From positions 1 through 25,331 of the IMG/VR virus record IMGVR_UViG_3300010331_000039: a stretch of 25,331 nt of DNA; one strand, given 5' to 3'. The stretch is from a virus. Position 1 is the first letter of the stretch. Each line of letters starts with the position of its first letter. A program made the position numbers and the translations under genes. Below, one piece after another: positions 2,815-22,253 of the stretch. A model generated the notes under the pieces. That model saw only the letters and a list, made by a program, of their open reading frames with translations, made no database searches and was not told the DNA's origin.

Positions 2815-4290
2815 TCATTTATCTTTGACAATCTGTGATATATTATCAATCCATACAATGTCGTTTTCACTTTTACTTTGACGTTCAATAAGTTTCTGTT
2901 TATCTCTACTCTTAATCATATTACCATCACCTAATAGAAAATCATCTATATAAATGTTAATAATAGTAGTAATCTTATCAGGATTATAAACATCTACTGT
3001 TTTACCTCTAGCATTACGTTGAGCATATTGAGTAGGACTTGTTGAACCAGCTGTAGTAATCACTTGTTCAATACCAGCTATATCCAAGCCTTCATCAAGA
3101 GCTTTAGCAGTAATTAGATACTTAAACTTACCTGTTTTAATACCTTCTATTGCTAACTTCTTTAATGACGTCTTACCAAACTTCTTAGGATTACCTTTAC
3201 TATCACGTATTAAATCTCCATCTTCATCTATGATATGTCGCGTTTCAATATTGCTATGATAAGCTACTGCTTTACCTGATAACATATCTGTAATATCATC
3301 TACCATTTCAGTAGATTCGTTAAAACATATAGTTGTAACAGGATTAGCATTAATAATATTTAATACAGCATTCATCTTAACTCTATTGTGTACAAGTATA
3401 AGATTACGTTTAGCTACGTATGCCTTAAATTGTTTAACACGTTCATAAATGTTATTAGGATTCCAACAACGATCACGTTCAGCATTAAATTCTATAGTAA
3501 GATCTAAATCTTTATTCCAACCCATAGTACCAGCAATGATATTACGTATTAGATCAGGTTTTAGAAATGTTGGAATACCTTTACGACTATGATAATTAGT
3601 ACCTACAAAAGCAGACATAATAAGATTGAAATCATCCTTAAATATAGGCATAGATTCACGTCTATTAATCATACCCGCCATACCTTTAAACATAGCTAAT
3701 GTTTCACTGATAGGTTGACTAAAACCAGCATATTTTTCTTTATCATGCTCTTCTAATTCTACAGCTAAATTATATTCTCTAAAATTAGATATCCAATGAT
3801 TAGCTAAAGCTTCTTCTTCAGTAATAGTATCTATAATAGGAAAGCCATGTTTAGCTAAAGTTTTAATATCTTTATCATCCATAGTTGTACCTGTAAGACC
3901 TAACTTAAAATGAGCTTCACAATACATTAATACTTTAAGACCACTAGGATTAAGAAACTTATGTATTTCATCAATGATAAGTAAGTCACATTTAACAACT
4001 TTCTCTTCACATGTTTGAATTCGATTACTCATAGTATACATAGTCATAACACTTTCTTTACCTGTAAGTTTATCTAACCAAGTATATAAATTCTTATTAG
4101 TAATTTCATTAGGAGTAATAGCATAAATGATAGCAGTAGGATTATTAACTAGAAATCTTTCTACTACCATCTGTGCTATTTTAGATTTACCAAATCTCAT
4201 AGTATATCTAAGTATACCTAAACCTTTATTCTTACGCCATGTCTGAATACCTTCTTCTTGACGTCTAGATTTAGATTCATCTTCAATCAT
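2815..4290 (-). CDS. SF2 (SNF2/DEAD-like) DNA helicase
   Basis: 491 aa. Superfamily 2 motifs occur in order: Walker A variant TMRFGKSKIA (30-39), Walker B/DEAH variant LLIIDEIHKF (103-112), motif III GLTGTTMDD (131-139), and in the C-terminal RecA domain a motif V-like LDEGLDIAGIEQVITT and motif VI QYAQRNARGKT. The start of the gene shares one base with the stop of the HTH gene 4290-4616, so the two are translationally coupled. crAss-like phages commonly carry an SF2/SNF2-type helicase in the replication block, and this fits. Likely roles are ATP-driven strand separation, fork remodelling or branch migration in the cytoplasm. The walker loop GKSK rather than GKT is a normal variant. Confidence 0.85.
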   Translation of the reverse strand: MIEDESKSRRQEEGIQTWRKNKGLGILRYTMRFGKSKIAQMVVERFLVNNPTAIIYAITPNEITNKNLYTWLDKLTGKESVMTMYTMSNRIQTCEEKVVKCDLLIIDEIHKFLNPSGLKVLMYCEAHFKLGLTGTTMDDKDIKTLAKHGFPIIDTITEEEALANHWISNFREYNLAVELEEHDKEKYAGFSQPISETLAMFKGMAGMINRRESMPIFKDDFNLIMSAFVGTNYHSRKGIPTFLKPDLIRNIIAGTMGWNKDLDLTIEFNAERDRCWNPNNIYERVKQFKAYVAKRNLILVHNRVKMNAVLNIINANPVTTICFNESTEMVDDITDMLSGKAVAYHSNIETRHIIDEDGDLIRDSKGNPKKFGKTSLKKLAIEGIKTGKFKYLITAKALDEGLDIAGIEQVITTAGSTSPTQYAQRNARGKTVDVYNPDKITTIINIYIDDFLLGDGNMIKSRDKQKLIERQSKSENDIVWIDNISQIVKDK

Positions 4291-4616
4291 TATAAACTAT
4301 CCAACTCTATATTTAGATAACTATATACTTTTAGTATAATACTAAATAAAGATTTACTAGGATCTTTAATTAATGTATCAATTGTAGATTCTTTACAACC
4401 TATAGCTTCAGCAATACTAGCAGGAGTTAAATCTTTGTCTAACATAGCATTGTATATAGCTAATTGCAATTGTTCTGTATATTGACAATTTTCATGTAAT
4501 GTTCTTGTTTGAGTACCTTTAAGACCATATAAATGATCTTCTTCTGTTGGTACATAAACAGCTACTTTAGGTTCAGTAGTTATATAAACTCTATTACCTA
4601 TCTTTTTTTTTGTCAT
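4290..4616 (-). CDS. Small HTH (XRE-like) DNA-binding protein
   Basis: 108 aa. The N-terminal half is unassigned. Residues about 50-105 read as a helix-turn-helix of the lambda repressor/Cro type: LQLAIYNAMLDKDLTPASIA, then EAIGCKESTIDTLIKDPSKS and a trailing helix ending YLNIELDSL. The layout (helix, 'T.A.IA..IGC..STI..L', helix) matches the 69-aa HTH protein at 5142-5351, so the two are probably distant paralogues. The start lies in a run of nine A bases (ATG ACA then A-tract), a site prone to slippage. It may act as a transcription regulator of the leftward block. Confidence 0.7.
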   Translation of the reverse strand: MTKKKIGNRVYITTEPKVAVYVPTEEDHLYGLKGTQTRTLHENCQYTEQLQLAIYNAMLDKDLTPASIAEAIGCKESTIDTLIKDPSKSLFSIILKVYSYLNIELDSL

Positions 4617-4851: not shown

Positions 4852-5145
4852 TCAATATTCTATATTATTTTTAAGTGAATTTATATATAACATTCTATCT
4901 ATCTCAGCAGCTATTAAAGCACCTGCTATGACTAATCTATCTTCATATGATTTATTAATCATTTTATTCCAGATAGTTTCATCCCAATTATCAGGTGCAT
5001 ATGGAGTACCATATATAAGATGACCTGCTGCAATAGATAATTGACATTCTTTATTAAATATAACATCTTGATTTAATGAAATACCATGTTTTTCAATTTG
5101 TTCTTCACGTTCTATTCTAATAAGTTCTATACCCGTTGATTTCAT
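4852..5145 (-). CDS. Phage protein resembling small nucleotide pyrophosphohydrolases
   Basis: 97 aa, wholly helical in appearance. It follows a pattern known from many phage proteins: ERxEQIxKHG (residues 13-22), a later ExQLSIAAGHLIYG block, a Trp/Asn-rich middle (DNWDETIWNKM) and the C-terminal VIAGALIAAEIDRML. This 'ER..QI..hG ... A-A ... AGALIAAEIDR' layout resembles the dATP/dGTP diphosphohydrolase N-terminal type family of phages, related to all-alpha NTP pyrophosphatases. If so it would trim the nucleotide pool beside the polymerase. Substrate and activity are inference. The ATG overlaps the stop of 5142-5351 (ATGA). Confidence 0.5.
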   Translation of the reverse strand: MKSTGIELIRIEREEQIEKHGISLNQDVIFNKECQLSIAAGHLIYGTPYAPDNWDETIWNKMINKSYEDRLVIAGALIAAEIDRMLYINSLKNNIEY

Positions 5146-5351
5146 AATTCTATTTCTAATGCGTTACAAATTCTAATAATTGTGCCTATCGTAGTATGAT
5201 CAATACTATCTAATGTTCTAATTAAAGTATTACGATTAATGCCAGATAGTTGCTCAAATGAATATCTAGTATGATGTGATTTTCTAAAAGCATCACTTAT
5301 TTCTTTTTGAAGTTCTAACAGATATTGTGCATTTTTATCTTTAGTTGTCAT
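5142..5351 (-). CDS. Minimal HTH (Cro-like) DNA-binding protein
   Basis: 69 aa. Almost the whole protein is a five-helix HTH: helix 1 QYLLELQKEISDAFRKSHHT, helix 2-3 YSFEQLSGINRNTLIRTLDS, and a final helix TIGTIIRICNALEIEL. It overlaps the next gene by ATGA and starts 1 nt after the PolB stop. It is likely a Cro/repressor-type regulator or a DNA-binding replication accessory; a weak paralogue lies at 4290-4616. Confidence 0.75.
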   Translation of the reverse strand: MTTKDKNAQYLLELQKEISDAFRKSHHTRYSFEQLSGINRNTLIRTLDSIDHTTIGTIIRICNALEIEL

Positions 5352-7526
5352 TTAATAATCTGTATTACTACTTGTAAATAAATTATTACTATTACCAATA
5401 ATACCTTTAGGTTTACCTTTCTTTTTAATATTACCTGAAAGTATTAAATCACATTGTTTAATATAGTATCCATAATTAATACCATATTCTTCTGGTTTAG
5501 CATGTAAATAAGTATTAAATATATTTACACTGTGATTAGCTAGTATATTAGCTAGTTTATCACCTTTACGTTTCATTATTACACCACCTGTATTACGTTC
5601 AGTTACATAAAACCTATTGTATTGCTGTAAAGGTTCTACATGTTTCTCTTTATTAACAATAGTATGAAATTCACATTTAAATGATTTATCTACTTTCTGT
5701 GCCATACAATAATCATATATAGCTGTATCATCTTCTTTAATGTGATTCTCAATATAAGTTTCAATAGGAACATCATATAACAAATAAGCATTCAATGCTT
5801 GTGGTACAACAGGATGTATAAAACCTTTATTAAACTCTACCTTAGGTATAAACAAACCTTTACGTTTAACAAATACATCTTCAATAGCTTCTATAGACTT
5901 TAGTTCTTTTTCATTGTATGTAACTGTATTATTAAGTTTAAATTCATCAATACATTTTTTAAATCCTTTTTTAATAGCTATATAATTATTAACATCATTT
6001 CTAAGATAACGTTCATAATCAGTGAATTCTAGACCTAGATTAGTAGTATCTTGCCAACGTTGACAACAATCATAATATATAGATTCTAATTCAGGTTTAA
6101 ACTTACATACAATGCCATCAGTATTAGCAGATATACAATGAATACCGTGAAGTTCTAAATCTTCTGCTAACATGAGTAAACGAAGTTGCCCATTAAATGT
6201 GACTGTATATGTACATTCAGGATCATATAGAAAATCTTTAGTATCTTTCAATGCGCCATACATACGATTAATAGCAATCTTAAGACCATCTGCTTTAACC
6301 TTTTGTTTATTAGCTTTCGCTTTAAGTCTACTACGAGTAACATGTTCAACCATTACAAGAAATGCTACACGATCTAAATGTTTAGGATATACTTGATCAT
6401 TAATAATAAGTGATGGATAATATGAATTTACATCACAATCACGTATAATATCAGTACCCGCATTATATATTCTAGGATCATCTTTGCTATGAATACCGCC
6501 TTTAGCTACTACATATTTGGTACCATTATGTAGTATATCACGTTCCCATTTAGATTTCTTTTTATCTTCTGTAATATATAATTTAGATGTTTTAATTTCA
6601 GTTAGAAAATCTTGAAATTTCTTAAGTTGAAATTTAATATCACTTTTAATAATATCCTTTAATGGTATAGTATATCTAAGTGTACGTAAATCTTTAAAAC
6701 TATAATATTCTTGTCCACTAATTTCACTATAGTATTTAATAGCTAATGCTTTACCTATACTACTTCTAGACATATTACGAAAATCAACTATACGACTAGT
6801 AGTACCATTACCACCAAATTCTTTATTAAGTTCTACACGTAAATTAAGTTCTGACTTCTGATCTAGTATAAGTGTTAATGTAATAAGTACATCATTAACA
6901 TTATAATCTAATATCGGTTCAACTTGATTATCTTGTATCTGTTCATAGACACTATACGGTAGTTGTTGAATACGATACCATTTAAGACATATAGCAACTT
7001 GTTTCAGACCTGTAAATGATTTATCTAAGTACAGTATCTTTTGTATGTCATAATCTGTGAATGGTCTCTTATAATACTTTAGGAAGTTTAACATTCTCCA
7101 ATAACCATTACCAAAGGATACACAAGCATCACTATGTTTAAACATGTATTCACATATATGTTGTCCATGTTTATTTAGACCAGTCCATTCATGAAAGCCT
7201 TTAATATTATATAGAAATATATCTAGCATTACAGCATCATAGTTACTACTATTGTAACCATATATAACTTTGTAAGTACTAAAGAAATCTACTATAAGAC
7301 TACTTTCATTGATAGGATTAATACCATTATAAATAGTAAATTGTTTAGCTTTCATAGCACGTAATAGAGCCTTTTTATCAGCTATATTACCTGCTAAATC
7401 TGCACGTTTATATGCAGTAACTAAACGTATATCTACATCTAATGGTATGAATGTAATACAGAAGAAATTCTTGTAACATTCAATATCATATACCCAAGTG
7501 ATCATTAATTGTTTTGATGTATCCAT
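5352..7526 (-). CDS. polB: Family B DNA polymerase with 3'-5' exonuclease
   Basis: 724 aa. Exonuclease motifs: ExoI YDIECYKNF (D14, E16), ExoII YNSSNYDAV (N95, D97), ExoIII DYNVNDVL (Y208, D212). Polymerase motifs: a YxGG-like KGGIHS (342-347), motif A CDVNSYYPSLI (D365), motif B KIAINRMYGALKD (K416, N420, Y423, G424), motif C ISANTDGIV (N468-T-D470). The second aspartate of motif C, matching the essential one in RB69-type enzymes, is kept while the first is Asn, a change seen in other phage PolB relatives. The protein is compact compared with RB69 (about 900 aa) and longer than phi29 (575 aa). It is the replicative polymerase of this phage. The start overlaps the 3' end of 7505-7774 by 22 nt. 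crAss-like phages encode either PolA or PolB; this is a PolB type. Confidence 0.93.
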   Translation of the reverse strand: MDTSKQLMITWVYDIECYKNFFCITFIPLDVDIRLVTAYKRADLAGNIADKKALLRAMKAKQFTIYNGINPINESSLIVDFFSTYKVIYGYNSSNYDAVMLDIFLYNIKGFHEWTGLNKHGQHICEYMFKHSDACVSFGNGYWRMLNFLKYYKRPFTDYDIQKILYLDKSFTGLKQVAICLKWYRIQQLPYSVYEQIQDNQVEPILDYNVNDVLITLTLILDQKSELNLRVELNKEFGGNGTTSRIVDFRNMSRSSIGKALAIKYYSEISGQEYYSFKDLRTLRYTIPLKDIIKSDIKFQLKKFQDFLTEIKTSKLYITEDKKKSKWERDILHNGTKYVVAKGGIHSKDDPRIYNAGTDIIRDCDVNSYYPSLIINDQVYPKHLDRVAFLVMVEHVTRSRLKAKANKQKVKADGLKIAINRMYGALKDTKDFLYDPECTYTVTFNGQLRLLMLAEDLELHGIHCISANTDGIVCKFKPELESIYYDCCQRWQDTTNLGLEFTDYERYLRNDVNNYIAIKKGFKKCIDEFKLNNTVTYNEKELKSIEAIEDVFVKRKGLFIPKVEFNKGFIHPVVPQALNAYLLYDVPIETYIENHIKEDDTAIYDYCMAQKVDKSFKCEFHTIVNKEKHVEPLQQYNRFYVTERNTGGVIMKRKGDKLANILANHSVNIFNTYLHAKPEEYGINYGYYIKQCDLILSGNIKKKGKPKGIIGNSNNLFTSSNTDY

Positions 7527-7774
7527 TTATACATAGCTTCAATATAAAGTATTTCTCCTTCTGGTTTATTAAGCCATCCATTAGAATAATATTCATATTC
7601 AGTACCATTCCAACCAAAATCATCTATATCAGGTTTAGGTTCAGGCTTAACTTCTACATCTATAATTTCAAGTTCTTTGAATTTACGTAAAGCTTCTTTA
7701 TACGCATTTTCTTTACTTACATCGCTTTCTTGTTCAATAACGATACCTCCGTTAAATCTAAAATAGTATTTCAT
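7505..7774 (-). CDS. DFG/YxxA...W repeat protein, one unit
   Basis: 89 aa. The first 45 residues (KYYFRFNGGIVIEQESDVSK) are a small beta-like segment with a Y-K-E-A-L pattern. A repeat unit follows: PKPDIDDFGWNG, then YSNGW..., then YIEAMYKWIHQN. The unit (P-x3-D-F/Y-G-F/Y/W ... Y-x2-A-x3-W) recurs in the next three genes upstream (7781-8814), seven units in all. Function unknown; aromatic and acidic residues dominate. The 3' end overlaps the PolB start by 22 nt, so the two are translationally coupled, suggesting a link to replication. Confidence 0.75.
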   Translation of the reverse strand: MKYYFRFNGGIVIEQESDVSKENAYKEALRKFKELEIIDVEVKPEPKPDIDDFGWNGTEYEYYSNGWLNKPEGEILYIEAMYKWIHQNN

Positions 7775-7780
7775 ATCTTT

Positions 7781-8044
7781 TTATGTATTATACGTTTTTA
7801 ATAAATTATTAATAGTTTCTGTATCTGGCGTAGTTATATTATATAGCCATTCTCCTATAGCTTTATAATAATCTTTTTTATTATTAAAAGTTGTAGGATC
7901 TGGTTCTGGTATATGTGTATCGGGGCCATATAAATTAACATCCTCCCATAAACCATATAATGTATAGTATCCTTCTATATCCCATTCGTACTTATCACCA
8001 GTTATACCCGGATATCCAAATTCTTCTTTCGTAGGTTCTTTCAT
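7781..8044 (-). CDS. DFG/YxxA...W repeat protein, two units
   Basis: 87 aa. Unit 1 starts at the initiator: MKEPTKEEFGYPG with a later YYTLYGLWEDV. Unit 2: IPEPDPTTFNNKKDYYKAIG, then EWLYN. The start MK-x-P followed by the D/E-F-G-Y block is the same as in 8076-8495 and 8479-8814, which makes these genes clear tandem paralogues. Rich in Tyr, Trp, Asp and Pro; no membrane segment, no catalytic motif. Role unknown. Confidence 0.75.
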   Translation of the reverse strand: MKEPTKEEFGYPGITGDKYEWDIEGYYTLYGLWEDVNLYGPDTHIPEPDPTTFNNKKDYYKAIGEWLYNITTPDTETINNLLKTYNT

Positions 8045-8069
8045 TGTAATATGTATATATTGATAATTT

Positions 8070-8117
8070 AATCTTTTATAAAATATTGTCTGTTAAATCT
8101 TTTATAAAATATTGTCT
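8070..8117. repeat. 26-bp-period tandem duplication at a gene 3' end
   Basis: AATCTTTTATAAAATATTGT plus CT occurs at 8070-8091 and again at 8096-8117. On the minus strand the second copy (read first) encodes RQYFIKDL and the first copy, in another frame, encodes DNIL and the stop. The period of 26 bp is not a multiple of three, so the duplication replaced the original C-terminus of the 8076-8495 protein. Confidence 0.85.
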
Positions 8118-8495
8118 ATAAAATATACGTAAGGCTTCTACATATTCATGTATTTTAATATCTACTTTATCATCAATCTCATATTCATAATCATGTGGAT
8201 CAGGTCTAGGAATACGTTGTTTAGCTTCTAAAGCAACTATATTAGGCTCTCGAAAGGCTCTCCATTTACTTAAAGCTTCAATATAAGCTTTTCGATCAAT
8301 GTCTGCCCAACCTGAATCTTTATATCCATAATCTTTACGATTAGGCCTAATAATAATATCTTTACTTCCTTCAATCACCCAATCAGCAACTGCATTATGA
8401 TATTCTTTAGCTAATTGTTCTTTAGGAAAATAACCACCTGATTCAAATGTAACATCTTCAATAAATCCATAATCTAATCTATTTGGCTTTTTCAT
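8076..8495 (-). CDS. DFG/YxxA...W repeat protein, three units
   Basis: 139 aa, the largest of the four paralogues. Three units are evident: MKKPNRLDYGFIE ... YHNAVADWVIEG; RPNRKDYGYKDSGW ... AYIEALSKWRAF; RPDPHDYEYEIDD ... EYVEALRIFYRQ. Each unit is about 32-42 residues: a Pro-anchored turn with D-Y-G-F/Y and a helix ending in W or Y. The final 13 residues derive from a 26-bp tandem duplication (8070-8117) that shifted the frame. The 5' end overlaps the stop of 8479-8814 by 17 nt. Function unknown; the repeated modular design suggests binding to a partner protein or nucleic acid. Confidence 0.75.
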   Translation of the reverse strand: MKKPNRLDYGFIEDVTFESGGYFPKEQLAKEYHNAVADWVIEGSKDIIIRPNRKDYGYKDSGWADIDRKAYIEALSKWRAFREPNIVALEAKQRIPRPDPHDYEYEIDDKVDIKIHEYVEALRIFYRQYFIKDLTDNIL

Positions 8496-8814
8496 CTTCT
8501 ATATAATTACGTTTAATAATATCAGGTTTAATCCTACCTTCTTGTTGATCAATAACTTCTTTAGTAATAATAGATAATACCCCTAGTAATTCATAAGCAT
8601 TAAATCCATCATTACATCTAATCATAGCAGAACTACCATCTTCATATTTTTCAATACTAAATGTATAAGTCTGTTTAGATTTAAGAACTCTATTTTGTAA
8701 TGAATCCCATGATTTATAAGCTTCTCTATATGCTTCTTGACCACCTAATTCATTCCATTTTTCAGTAGTTAAACCATTGTTAAATCCAAAATCATTTTTA
8801 TCAGGTTGTTTCAT
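8479..8814 (-). CDS. DFG/YxxA...W repeat protein with extra C-terminal domain
   Basis: 111 aa. The N-terminus is one repeat unit: MKQPDKNDFGFNNG ... EAYREAYKSWDSLQ. Residues 45-100 (SKQTYTFSIEKYEDGSSAMI ... AYELLGVLSIITKEVIDQQ) form a different, alpha/beta-looking part without a known motif; the pattern 'S..I.RC.DGFNAYELLGVL' resembles small phage proteins of unknown role that pair a beta hairpin with a helix. The stop is TAG, inside the overlap with 8076-8495. Confidence 0.7.
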   Translation of the reverse strand: MKQPDKNDFGFNNGLTTEKWNELGGQEAYREAYKSWDSLQNRVLKSKQTYTFSIEKYEDGSSAMIRCNDGFNAYELLGVLSIITKEVIDQQEGRIKPDIIKRNYIEDEKAK

Positions 8815-8820
8815 TATATT

Positions 8821-9465
8821 TTATATATGAAATTTATTAATTAAAACTCTATAGAAATCATTAATAACTTTAAAACTTTCATCATATTCTTCATACTTAC
8901 CTGACTTAATAATATAAGAAGGCGAATGAATTAGTATAATAATAGTTTTATTACCAGCTACATGATCTATATTCATTGGTGTTATATACCTATCTATTGC
9001 AATAGGCTTATTAACTACATGTGAAATGTATTCTTTATTATCACCTACAATATGATTGTAAACAGTTAAACCAAGAGTTACAATAATCAATGGTTTATAA
9101 TGTTGTAATTCACGTATAAGATGACCTTTACAGACTTCTATTTCACCATCAGTAGGTTTAGGACTAAGGAATGGTCTACATCGAACTAGTTGTGTAAAAT
9201 AACTATCTTCTAGTAAATTATTCTTATCTATTAAACCTTTAAGAAACATATTAGGTCTACTAACAAATGCAGTCTTACGTTTATCTTCAGTTGTAGTAGG
9301 AGCTTCGGCTATAAAGAATACCGTAATCCCCAAACCTTCACTTCTACAGGGAGTAAATAAGCTACCCATAGCTAGATTACAAGCATCACATCTATTAATG
9401 TTACCAACATGTTTATGATCACCTTTAAGAAATTGAAGTTTGTTCATCTTCTTCATCTTCTTCAT
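8821..9465 (-). CDS. Family-4-like uracil-DNA glycosylase (Fe-S)
   Basis: 214 aa (or 208 if the third ATG at 9447 is used). UDG-superfamily features: four candidate [4Fe-4S] cysteines C26-x2-C29, C96 and C112; motif FFIAEAPTTTED (50-61) in the place of the family GEAPG..ED; RCRPFLSPKPTDGEIEVCKG (95-114); a central strand KPLIIVTLG; and the C-terminal IHSPSY (179-184) equal to the HPS loop. The enzyme would remove uracil from DNA or act as a replication accessory, and crAss-like phages often carry it in this block. The first residues MKKMKKMNK come from a microsatellite-like overlap with 9425-9724, and the start is therefore uncertain. The motif-A Gly-to-Ala change and TTT in place of G may alter activity. 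Confidence 0.8.
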   Translation of the reverse strand: MKKMKKMNKLQFLKGDHKHVGNINRCDACNLAMGSLFTPCRSEGLGITVFFIAEAPTTTEDKRKTAFVSRPNMFLKGLIDKNNLLEDSYFTQLVRCRPFLSPKPTDGEIEVCKGHLIRELQHYKPLIIVTLGLTVYNHIVGDNKEYISHVVNKPIAIDRYITPMNIDHVAGNKTIIILIHSPSYIIKSGKYEEYDESFKVINDFYRVLINKFHI

Positions 9466-11146: not shown

Positions 11147-11467
11147 TTAAAAAGGTTTATTTATATATTTAATAGCATCACATATAGCATCCATATAAGT
11201 ATCAGTGATATTAACATTAACATTGTCTTTATCTACAACAAATTTAACATTATCACCAATCTTAACAAATACTATATATAGTTTTTCATTTACAAATATA
11301 GTAGTTTTATATCTACTATATAGGAAATCTAGTAAGTAACCAATTTGCCATTCCAACTTGAACTTTAAAAGAAAGTCTTTCATATCAACTTGTTTCTTTG
11401 CCATATGTTGTTGTAACTCCTTGTTTACCATACTAGATTCACGTAGTGTATCAATCAGTTTTGACAT
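11147..11467 (-). CDS. Hypothetical protein
   Basis: 106 aa, unrecognised. The N-terminal 35 residues are helical and charged (LRESSMVNKELQQHMAKKQV); the rest alternates strands (KTTIFVNEKLYIVFVKIGDN, VKFVVDKDNVNVNITD). No cysteine or catalytic motif. It ends 1 nt before the SF1 helicase start and overlaps 11451-11774 by 17 nt, so it belongs to the same operon and could be a helicase partner. Confidence 0.7.
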   Translation of the reverse strand: MSKLIDTLRESSMVNKELQQHMAKKQVDMKDFLLKFKLEWQIGYLLDFLYSRYKTTIFVNEKLYIVFVKIGDNVKFVVDKDNVNVNITDTYMDAICDAIKYINKPF

Positions 11468-11774
11468 CTTTTAAATCTTCTAATAGACGTTCCATAAATG
11501 TTTCTTCACCATCATCACCAGATAGAAACCAATCAATACGTGTAGCATATATTTCAGCTATTTTAAATATAGCAATAGCTTCTCTAAAACGTTTTTGAAT
11601 ATCTTCTGAATATGTAGGATATTGCAAATCTTGTGGATAAGCTTTATAATAATCATCGCTACCCCATAAAGATTCAATATCTTTATCTCTACCTTGTTTA
11701 GCAAGTTCACGTTCTACTTCATCAGCAAATTCTCTGAATACATATTGTTTATAATCGAAGTGTCCACCACTCAT
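11451..11774 (-). CDS. 'MSGGHFDY' conserved protein of unknown function
   Basis: 107 aa. It begins MSGGHFDYKQYVFREFADEV and continues to a C-terminal helix RIDWFLSGDDGEETFMERLL. The opening 'MSGGHFDY' and the closing 'IDW..SGDDGEE.F..RL..EL' are highly characteristic of a widespread phage and bacterial family with no assigned role. The start is fixed by that conserved N-terminus. It is the first gene after the structured intergenic segment 11821-11890. Confidence 0.8.
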   Translation of the reverse strand: MSGGHFDYKQYVFREFADEVERELAKQGRDKDIESLWGSDDYYKAYPQDLQYPTYSEDIQKRFREAIAIFKIAEIYATRIDWFLSGDDGEETFMERLLEDLKDVKTD

Positions 11775-20092: not shown

Positions 20093-20347
20093 TTAAAAGT
20101 AATAATTTGTTAAAATTATTATACATATATCTTCAATTATATCTTCAAATATACATAAAATTATAGTAAAAATATAATACGATTTTACAACAAATATAAA
20201 ATATTTTGCAGATAAATTTATAGGTAATTTATTATATTTTACAATGCCTTCCGCAAAACATTTATAGGTACGTTTAGGAGTATCTTTATTAATACCTTTA
20301 CATCTATGTGTAGTATTTTTATAATTTGTATCTATATAATAAAGCAA
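20093..20347 (-). CDS. Doubtful ORF in the divergent region
   Basis: 84 aa with a TTG start: HRCKGINKDTPKRTYKCFAE then GIVKYNKLPINLSAKYFIFV, followed by a hydrophobic end (YYIFTIILCIF). Part of it looks protein-like (basic, Cys-containing), but the AT content is extreme and the 3' end lies in an inverted repeat (20100-20121). It is either a small real early gene or chance. Confidence 0.3.
   Translation of the reverse strand: MLYYIDTNYKNTTHRCKGINKDTPKRTYKCFAEGIVKYNKLPINLSAKYFIFVVKSYYIFTIILCIFEDIIEDICIIILTNYYF
20100..20121. repeat. 9-bp perfect inverted repeat, AT-only
   Basis: TAATAATTT (20100-20108), GTTA, AAATTATTA (20113-20121). It lies in the divergent region, which from 19762 to 20435 has no confident gene. 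On the minus strand it is followed by CUUUUAA, so it could be a weak terminator; alternatively it could be part of an AT-rich origin or operator. Confidence 0.5.
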
Positions 20348-20364
20348 TAAAGATACTCATTATA

Positions 20365-20396
20365 TTTGGTATATACAATACTATATGATATATTTG
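20365..20396 (+). promoter_or_regulatory. Bacteroidota-type promoter of the rightward operon
   Basis: TTTG at 20365-20368, 20 nt spacer, TATATTTG at 20389-20396: an exact match to the Bacteroidota consensus TTTG-N19-21-TAnnTTTG. The -33 box is itself the end of another TATATTTG (20361-20368), so two tandem promoters are possible. Expected start near 20403, about 33 nt before the first ATG at 20436. Confidence 0.8.
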
Positions 20397-20435
20397 TACC
20401 CATAAGTAATTACTAATACATATATAAATACTATT

Positions 20436-20882
20436 ATGGAATCACAAGTTATTAGAGAAGCTAAGAGTTTACATCATGTTAAACCTGTACTTAATAATCT
20501 ATTAGTTAGATATAAGTATGAAGCCAAAGGAATGATTATTACTAATAAAGATGCACTCGGTAATGTTCAAGCTATTGAAAAAGTTATTGTAGGTTATGGT
20601 GAAACTACATTACCTAGATATGATATCGGAATAGCTATTATAACTAAAGCTAATTGTTTTAGTTTACAACCTATTGTTATTACAGGTAATGATAAATCAG
20701 TTGCAAGTATTGCTAAATCTTTAAATCCTGCTAATAAAAATGTTAGAGTATTAGTACTTAATGAAAGTGATAAAGCAGATCGGAAAATAGATTTAGCTAA
20801 AGTATATACAATGTACGAATATTATCTTATTAACGAAGGTGATATTATGGCTACAGATACAGATGTAATTGTAGAACTTTAA
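20436..20882 (+). CDS. Putative GroES-like co-chaperonin
   Basis: 148 aa. The layout resembles Cpn10/GroES: a beta start HVKPVLNNLLVRYKYEAKGM followed by IITNK (cf. 'kPLgDRVLVk.....GiiiP'), then EKVIVGYGE (cf. 'geViAvG.G'), YDIGIAIITKA, and a C-terminal YYLINEGDIMA (cf. 'y.....dIlA'). It is longer than GroES (about 97 aa), as is T4 gp31 (111 aa). It could help fold phage structural proteins with the host GroEL. First gene after the strong promoter. Similarity is by pattern only; it may be a phage protein of an unrelated beta-barrel fold. Confidence 0.4.
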   Translation: MESQVIREAKSLHHVKPVLNNLLVRYKYEAKGMIITNKDALGNVQAIEKVIVGYGETTLPRYDIGIAIITKANCFSLQPIVITGNDKSVASIAKSLNPANKNVRVLVLNESDKADRKIDLAKVYTMYEYYLINEGDIMATDTDVIVEL

Positions 20883-20896
20883 TACCTATATCTTTA

Positions 20897-21316
20897 ATGA
20901 CACCTCAACAAGAAAATAAAGTTATTAAAGATATTCCTCAAGCATTTGAAGAACTTAATAATTTGAGCTTAGAAGAACGTAATTGGTTAGCTGAGTTTGA
21001 AGGATTAAGTTCTTCTGATTTAAAGACTTTAGTTAAAGTATTTGAGAGAAGTCAATCTTTAAGTATAACTAAAGGTTTCCATTCATTAGATGAAAAGATA
21101 TTTGTACCTAAACTTGGTGTCTTTTATATTAAAGAAGCTAAGATGGATTTAGCTAGACTTACAGGAATGGAACCTTGTAAACTTGATCCTAAAACACATG
21201 CTGAAGTTATAGCAGAAATTAAACGTTTATATTTAGAACGTGCTACAAGTGGAGCTAATAATAATCGTAATAAAACACTTCATGTCAATCTTAACCGAAC
21301 TAGTACCGAAAGGTAG
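20897..21316 (+). CDS. Hypothetical protein
   Basis: 139 aa, unrecognised. Helical, with the charged LEERNWLAEFEGLSSSDLKT and a short beta segment DEKIFVPKLGVFYIKEAKMD. The TAG stop lies inside the next gene (35-nt overlap). The C-terminal 20 residues (TSGANNNRNKTLHVNLNRTS) look disordered. The position between the GroES-like gene and the nuclease says only that it is expressed with the late operon. Confidence 0.7.
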   Translation: MTPQQENKVIKDIPQAFEELNNLSLEERNWLAEFEGLSSSDLKTLVKVFERSQSLSITKGFHSLDEKIFVPKLGVFYIKEAKMDLARLTGMEPCKLDPKTHAEVIAEIKRLYLERATSGANNNRNKTLHVNLNRTSTER

Positions 21317-22253
21317 AATACTATATTTTAATGAAGAAGCACATAAGTATAAAGATGATCTCGATCAACACTATACTAGTACTACTACAGTTGTAGGTAA
21401 ATATACAGAAGAATTTAAGACTAAGGAAATAGCTAAAGCATGTGAACGTATAGGTCGTATGTCTCAACATCCTAAATATCTTTTATATCGTGGTAAATCT
21501 GCTAAACAACTTATATTTGAATGGGCTACTGAAACAGAACGAGCATGTGCTAAAGGTACAGTTAAACACAATACACTTGAAGATGCAGTTAAGAGTTCTA
21601 ATAACTATAAGAAAAATGCTAATGGATTTGTTAATGATCGTATCTATACTATAGATGATATTATTAAGAAACATAAATACGGTAAACTTACTTTAAAGTA
21701 CTTTAGTAAAACAGGTATTGATATTAAGTATCCTACTATTTATGGTATTATTAAAGATCTTGTTGGTAAAGGTTTTAAGATATATGCAGAGATAGGTGTA
21801 TATCATACAGGATTTCTTATTAGTGGTTTGATAGATATATTACTTGTTAATGATGCAGGTGAATTTTATATATTAGATTGGAAAACTAATAAAGCACCAT
21901 TACATTTTGATTGTGGTTATTATGAGAAGAATTTAGATGCTACTCTTAATCTAGATAAATGGATTAATAAAGATAATTACTTTGCATATCCACTTAATAA
22001 ATTAGTAGATAGTGTAGGTAATCATTATGCTATGCAACTATCTACTTATGCTTATCTTGTAGAAACATTTGGTTTGAAACTTATAGGTCTTATACTTTGT
22101 CATATACGTACACTTGAAAAGACATATGATGCTAATGGTAATGAAGTAGAAGAAGTTAAGTTTTATAAAATACCTTATCTTAAACAAGATGTTGAGAATA
22201 TGCTTACAGATCATTCACGTTCTATACAATCAACTAAAACATTATTTTCATGA
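21282..22253 (+). CDS. PD-(D/E)XK nuclease (RecB/Cas4-like)
   Basis: 323 aa; I take the ATG at 21282 (MSILTELVPKGRILYFNEEA) because the upstream part overlaps the previous gene and is unlike the family start. Motifs: GTVKHNTLE (residues 92-100), the 'GT..H..LE' block of this nuclease clan; GLIDILL with D185; and EFYILDWKTNK with D199 and K201, the PD-(D/E)XK core 'D...(I)DWK'. It should be a Mg-dependent exonuclease or processing nuclease. The gene lies in the packaging/late operon of crAss-like phages; it may also be the partner of the RecT-like annealing protein. Confidence 0.8.
   Translation: MSILTELVPKGRILYFNEEAHKYKDDLDQHYTSTTTVVGKYTEEFKTKEIAKACERIGRMSQHPKYLLYRGKSAKQLIFEWATETERACAKGTVKHNTLEDAVKSSNNYKKNANGFVNDRIYTIDDIIKKHKYGKLTLKYFSKTGIDIKYPTIYGIIKDLVGKGFKIYAEIGVYHTGFLISGLIDILLVNDAGEFYILDWKTNKAPLHFDCGYYEKNLDATLNLDKWINKDNYFAYPLNKLVDSVGNHYAMQLSTYAYLVETFGLKLIGLILCHIRTLEKTYDANGNEVEEVKFYKIPYLKQDVENMLTDHSRSIQSTKTLFS

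Follow-up and report, generated by a model that had tools for sequence, protein, structure and literature searches.

Four small genes between UDG and PolB of a crAss-like gut virus probably belong to a wider phage module family

The uracil-DNA glycosylase (UDG) and family B DNA polymerase (PolB) genes of IMG/VR virus record IMGVR_UViG_3300010331_000039, analysed here over 25,331 nucleotides (the 25-kb window), are separated by four small minus-strand genes at 7505–8814, designated G1 to G4. They are transcribed in the order G4, G3, G2 and G1 and encode proteins of 111, 139, 87 and 89 residues, respectively. The genes carry copies of a module of 35–42 residues with the consensus P-x3-[DEK]-[FY]-G-[WYF]...G-W-x2-E-G-G-E-x2-Y-x2-A-[LMF]-x2-[WY], and they are very probably members of a wider phage module family. 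Our tentative reading of their role is that they are accessory proteins made of a mobile, non-enzymatic protein-binding module, which would be multivalent here.

About 20 distinct proteins outside the window, in otherwise unrelated phages, shared the module; they were recovered by scanning IMG/VR and GTDB with DNA patterns and then searching with profiles. The first degenerate DNA pattern gave 44 stretches in IMG/VR, four of which encoded a clear in-frame relative (L048, L049, L057 and L027), and refined patterns added further members from IMG/VR and GTDB genomes. A second, independent DNA pattern, W...EGGE...Y...A, was limited to the module's second half and yielded about ten further members, nearly all of which possessed the P-x3-[DEK]-[FY]-G half as well, although the pattern had left it unspecified. 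Pattern matches in genome contigs were mostly non-members, the only true ones being L099 and L107, on contigs of Ignavibacteria and Kapaibacterium metagenome-assembled genomes. Profile searches of 395 genomes from the phylum of L099 and 294 from the class of L107 (overlapping samples) recovered nothing beyond these two, indicating that the module is mainly phage-borne. An earlier note on this DNA had described the units as a new-looking family; they matched no known family in the libraries searched, but they were not confined to the window, and a family peculiar to the array locus is unsupported. Single-sequence searches with PolB and G3 against viral contigs, and with G1 against genome contigs, returned no relative.

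Short units in an AT-rich genome might resemble each other by chance or through compositional bias, and several profiles bear on this alternative. A profile of all seven candidate units matched seven times in the window and never in ten related records, the window count including the profile's own targets. When each gene was scored with a profile of the other genes' units, G3 (27.3 bits) and G4 (22.1 bits) beat all 80,000 shuffles, and G1 reached 14.5 bits, a score attained by 2 of 20,000 of its own shuffles. G2 was missed by the profile of its neighbours' units (−2.1 bits), which, like the shortness of the units, speaks for chance. We then used an outside-only profile, comprising 19 outside sequences and no window sequence, with 20,000 shuffles of each gene as the null. 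G3, G4, G1 and G2 scored 30.0, 28.6, 20.6 and 13.1 bits, respectively; none of the 20,000 own shuffles reached the score of any of the four genes, and the best other open reading frame (ORF) of the window scored 2.9 bits. A stricter profile, restricted to members found via the second DNA pattern, gave 23.6 bits for G4, 18.8 for G3, 14.0 for G2 and 10.7 for G1, with 0, 0, 0 and 3 of 20,000 own shuffles, respectively, doing as well. As a control, 26 loci that fitted the DNA pattern in its GAC form only were examined; none matched the profile, and this form supplied no new member. Chance is thus already contradicted, and we regard it as barely credible.

On the leave-one-gene-out, outside-only and stricter profile scores against shuffles, five or six units are secure. 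The seven copies counted in the earlier note therefore stand for the most part, the second unit of 7781–8044 being the weak one. All units are on the minus strand. The unit of G4 (g4, 8701–8814) was recognized by the seven-unit and the outside-only profiles. In G3, the first unit (g3_1, 8373–8495) has its best match beyond the window in L082, the second (g3_2, 8256–8354) was found by profile searches, and the third (g3_3, 8112–8213) is degenerate, with DYEY for DYGF, and is supported mainly by its likeness to g3_2. The first unit of G2 (g2_1, 7940–8044) is supported by profile and alignment scores; the second (g2_2, 7838–7912) has 25 residues, is doubtful and was found only by the profile containing it. 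The unit of G1 (g1, 7514–7642) was found by profile searches. The P-x3-[DEK]-[FY]-G start is present in g4, g3_1, g3_2, g2_1 and g1 and incomplete in g3_3 (DYEY) and g2_2 (TTFN). A Trp-bearing middle followed by a Gly-rich or Glu loop is clearly recognizable in g4 and g1 and only partly so in g3_1 and g3_2; g3_3 and g2_2 lack it.

The gene coordinates and N-termini agreed with those of the earlier note: G4, G3 and G2 start with a unit, and G1 ends with one. G4 (8479–8814) consists of an N-terminal module and a predicted beta-beta-alpha domain; G3 (8076–8495) of three tandem modules; G2 (7781–8044) of one divergent module and the doubtful one; and G1 (7505–7774) of a small N-terminal domain of about 42 residues and a C-terminal module. 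Two adjoining 26-nt imperfect direct copies, 81% identical, lie at the 3' end of G3 (8057–8108).

Searches of Pfam, PHROGs, NCBIfam and PADLOC with the window genes and the outside members tested gave no significant family over the module. In PADLOC, nothing was found up to an E-value of 0.1 for G1–G4 and four outside members. No significant relative of the module was present among PDB sequences, and neither window genes nor outside members gave anything credible by tblastn against 50,697 named phage records and against plasmids. A literature search for the motif text found none. The earlier note's view that this repeat family lacks a named counterpart was thus borne out in the libraries searched, and the module's domain family appears undescribed. 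Small unnamed domains, as a kind, are common in phages. Three candidates were rejected because they fell below the Pfam gathering cut-off: MORN_2 (PF07661) for G1 (10.7 against 29.6 bits), VraX for G4 (14.5 against 25) and Sushi for G4 (13.4 against 20.7). A profile match in cr10_1 lay inside a dATP/dGTP pyrophosphohydrolase gene and was taken as chance.

Outside the window, the module makes up nearly the whole protein in L099 (45 residues), L087 (49), L138 (49), L048 (54), L082 (55) and L131 (60), and stand-alone module proteins span 45–76 residues. It is N-terminal in L057, L070, L125 and L126, and at or near the C-terminus in L027, L132, L133 and L049. The last is a DUF3560 protein on a phage contig (L049, 525–2730), encoded beside HNH-like and reverse transcriptase genes. 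One copy was present in every outside record that was searched in full; a second, weak match in the L107 genome (E 0.45) was left out of the count. So far, only the window has the module in a tandem array.

The occurrence of the module at either end of unrelated proteins would suit an addressing tag by which phage proteins are directed to the virion or to a compartment. Such a tag would lack a cargo in many members, because these proteins consist of the module only, and we consider this alternative very improbable.

The array sits in a helicase-UDG-PolB operon of a crAss-like gut virus. The upstream neighbour is UDG (8821–9465, minus strand; PF03167, E 1.4e-15), and PolB (5352–7526, minus strand, with a likely true start at 7505) is of the crAss-like type (PHROG 1252, E 1.5e-116). 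Directly downstream of PolB are two small regulator-like genes (4290–4616 and 5142–5351), which match PHROG 1373 and 4268. The stop codon of G1 overlaps the ATG at 7505 by a single base (TAATG), whereas the overlap would be 22 nt with the ATG at 7526. The start at 7505 fits the PolB N-termini of cr127_1 and L008 better than the one at 7526. An overlap of the last gene with the PolB start, as described in the earlier note, therefore exists, but its extent depends on the start and is 1 nt at the likelier one. Packed phage operons often contain such 1-nt TAATG-type junctions, which by themselves imply no functional tie, so the suggestion that translation is specially tied to the polymerase found no support here.

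The nearest named record to the window PolB is cr127_1 (Kahucivirus intestinalis, Crevaviridae), with 42% identity. UDG and PolB are 6 nt apart in L008 and 133 nt apart in L009, and are separated by one small gene, gp71, in cr127_1; gp71 occupies the same slot and weakly resembles the C-terminal part of G4. Neither module nor array was found in 18 reference phages with related PolB genes, most of them crAss-like, and the array was absent from six IMG/VR contigs. Because the junctions of relatives are without it, the array looks like an addition in the lineage of the window. In three relatives, an insert splits PolB into two ORFs (L008, 2245–5866; L002, 11986–14920; L004, 6783–9480); the window PolB is uninterrupted. 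The insert of L008 was recognized by eye as a GIY-YIG-like endonuclease (3676–4353). The helicase gene of crAss-like phage ctcc615 (L003, 6534–9063) also contains an interruption, within which a GIY-YIG endonuclease gene is annotated.

These junctions bear on the replication role raised in the earlier note, under which the four proteins would be accessories binding PolB, UDG or the helicase. The position of the array inside the operon is consistent with it, as are the few outside members near DnaA-C, SSB or UvrD genes. However, UDG and PolB in relatives are either adjacent or parted by no more than a short gap or a small module-free gene, and the 18 reference phages with related PolB genes do without the module. 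The neighbours of the outside members, some of them named by eye, are diverse: tail genes (L048), terminase (L129, L131), C5 methyltransferases (L127, L130), glycosyltransferases (L138), DnaA-C (L087), UvrD (L070), reverse transcriptase with HNH (L049) and a GHKL ATPase (L132). A Pfam tally of these neighbours, for which no matched control tally was made, showed no common partner. Because these neighbours are so varied, a replication-specific job is unsupported, and we judge it improbable.

The local duplication that the earlier note had read from the order and spacing of the genes fared similarly. Mean alignment scores of g4, g3_1, g3_2, g2_1 and g1 were higher against outside members than against one another, and the DNA repeats of the array are short and degenerate; a recent local duplication is therefore unsupported. 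Judged from the sequences, an old expansion or repeated acquisition would fit the array better than recent duplication, two histories that are indistinguishable from 35-residue sequences.

We predicted the fold of the module with AlphaFold2. The model of L087 (23 alignment rows; mean pLDDT 87, pTM 0.65) placed a short helix at PEDY and, after a small bridge, a second helix from the Gly-Gly to the C-terminus. In the model of G4 (21 rows), the module had a pLDDT of 90–96, and the beta-beta-alpha domain after it was less certain. In both predicted modules a short helix follows the Pro (PxxDF in G4) and the C-terminal helix starts at the same Gly-Gly; the middle segment differs in these models from overlapping alignments, being a bridge in L087 and a helix in G4. 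No significant structural match came from Foldseek (PDB, BFVD) or VIA-align, a result that is weak evidence for a new fold when the model has only 49 residues. The invariant columns of the module are P, G, W, Y and A, with no catalytic-type invariant set.

According to our proposal, each gene would be built from one autonomously folding mini-domain of 35–42 residues, in which P-x3-D-[FY]-G is predicted to form a short helical turn, followed by a loop or hairpin that bears the Trp and by a C-terminal helix that starts at the Gly-Gly and contains Y-x2-A-[LMF]-x2-[WY]. This mobile phage module would be used alone, fused at either end of a protein, or in tandem as in the window, where it would act as a non-catalytic binding module expressed together with the replication operon. 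The three copies of G3 may provide multivalent binding, and in G1 and G4 the module would be linked to other small domains. From the small size, modular use, tandem repetition and lack of a catalytic-type conserved set, we infer that the module possibly functions by binding another protein, perhaps of the host. Several points weigh against this proposal. The neighbouring genes have no common function, and size, modularity and repeat number are the only grounds for binding; the units in the window have diverged, key positions are lost in g3_3 and g2_2, and some copies may be decaying; and the agreement between the L087 and G4 folds is not independent, because the two predictions share most alignment rows.

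A rival explanation is host takeover or counter-defence, in which each module would block a specific bacterial protein early in infection and the diverged copies would cover several targets or variants. The proteins are small accessory phage genes, mobile across phages, the window copies are strongly diverged, the outside modules are mostly acidic (most have a net charge of about −6 to −8), and some outside neighbours are methyltransferase, GmrSD or Abi genes. Against these observations, PADLOC gave no match, methyltransferases occur at few loci only, and not every window unit is acidic (g3_2 has a charge of +3). This explanation also overlaps with the protein-binding proposal, since inhibition too would act through protein binding; taken by itself, we consider it rather unlikely. 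Phage small proteins are regarded as a large uncharted pool with host-directed functions (PMC11323111). An extended form of the protein-binding proposal, to which we give an equally low probability, is that the module is an undescribed, promiscuous plug-in binding mini-domain of phages, and that the window virus has built it into a multivalent array in the replication operon, with the individual copies adapted to different host proteins. The recurrence of the module as a single protein, a fusion and an array provides natural single-module sets for testing, and the module profile would let annotators label it. Should the module bind a bacterial protein that is conserved, a target common to phages would come to light.

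Elsewhere in the window, a protein starting MSGGHFDY (11451–11774) matched the unnamed phage family phrog_6724, the coding strand turned from minus to plus at 20347–20436, and an exonuclease-like gene (PHROG 298) was located at 21240–22253.

Among known systems, cr127_1 has the same order of helicase, UDG, small gene and PolB, and its PolB and helicase are 42% and 50% identical to those of the window; it differs in having the single small gene gp71 and no module anywhere in the record. The unannotated stand-alone modules L087, L048, L138 and L131 on IMG/VR contigs, and L099 and L107 on the contigs of metagenome-assembled genomes, share the P-x3-[DEK]-[FY]-G...W...Y-x2-A-x3-[WY] module with the window; in contrast to it, they hold a single copy (records searched whole), are nearer the consensus, form no tandem array and stand in other neighbourhoods. 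In the DUF3560 protein of L049 (phrog_17519), the module is C-terminal and lies beyond the end of both the DUF3560 and the PHROG model; nothing in the window matched DUF3560. A TPR-like repeat was also considered and rejected, as there was no Pfam TPR match. TPR-type helical repeats likewise consist of tandem units of 34–42 residues with conserved aromatics and Ala; whereas they pair two antiparallel helices, the module has a single long predicted helix per unit, with a loop that contains conserved Pro, Gly and Trp.

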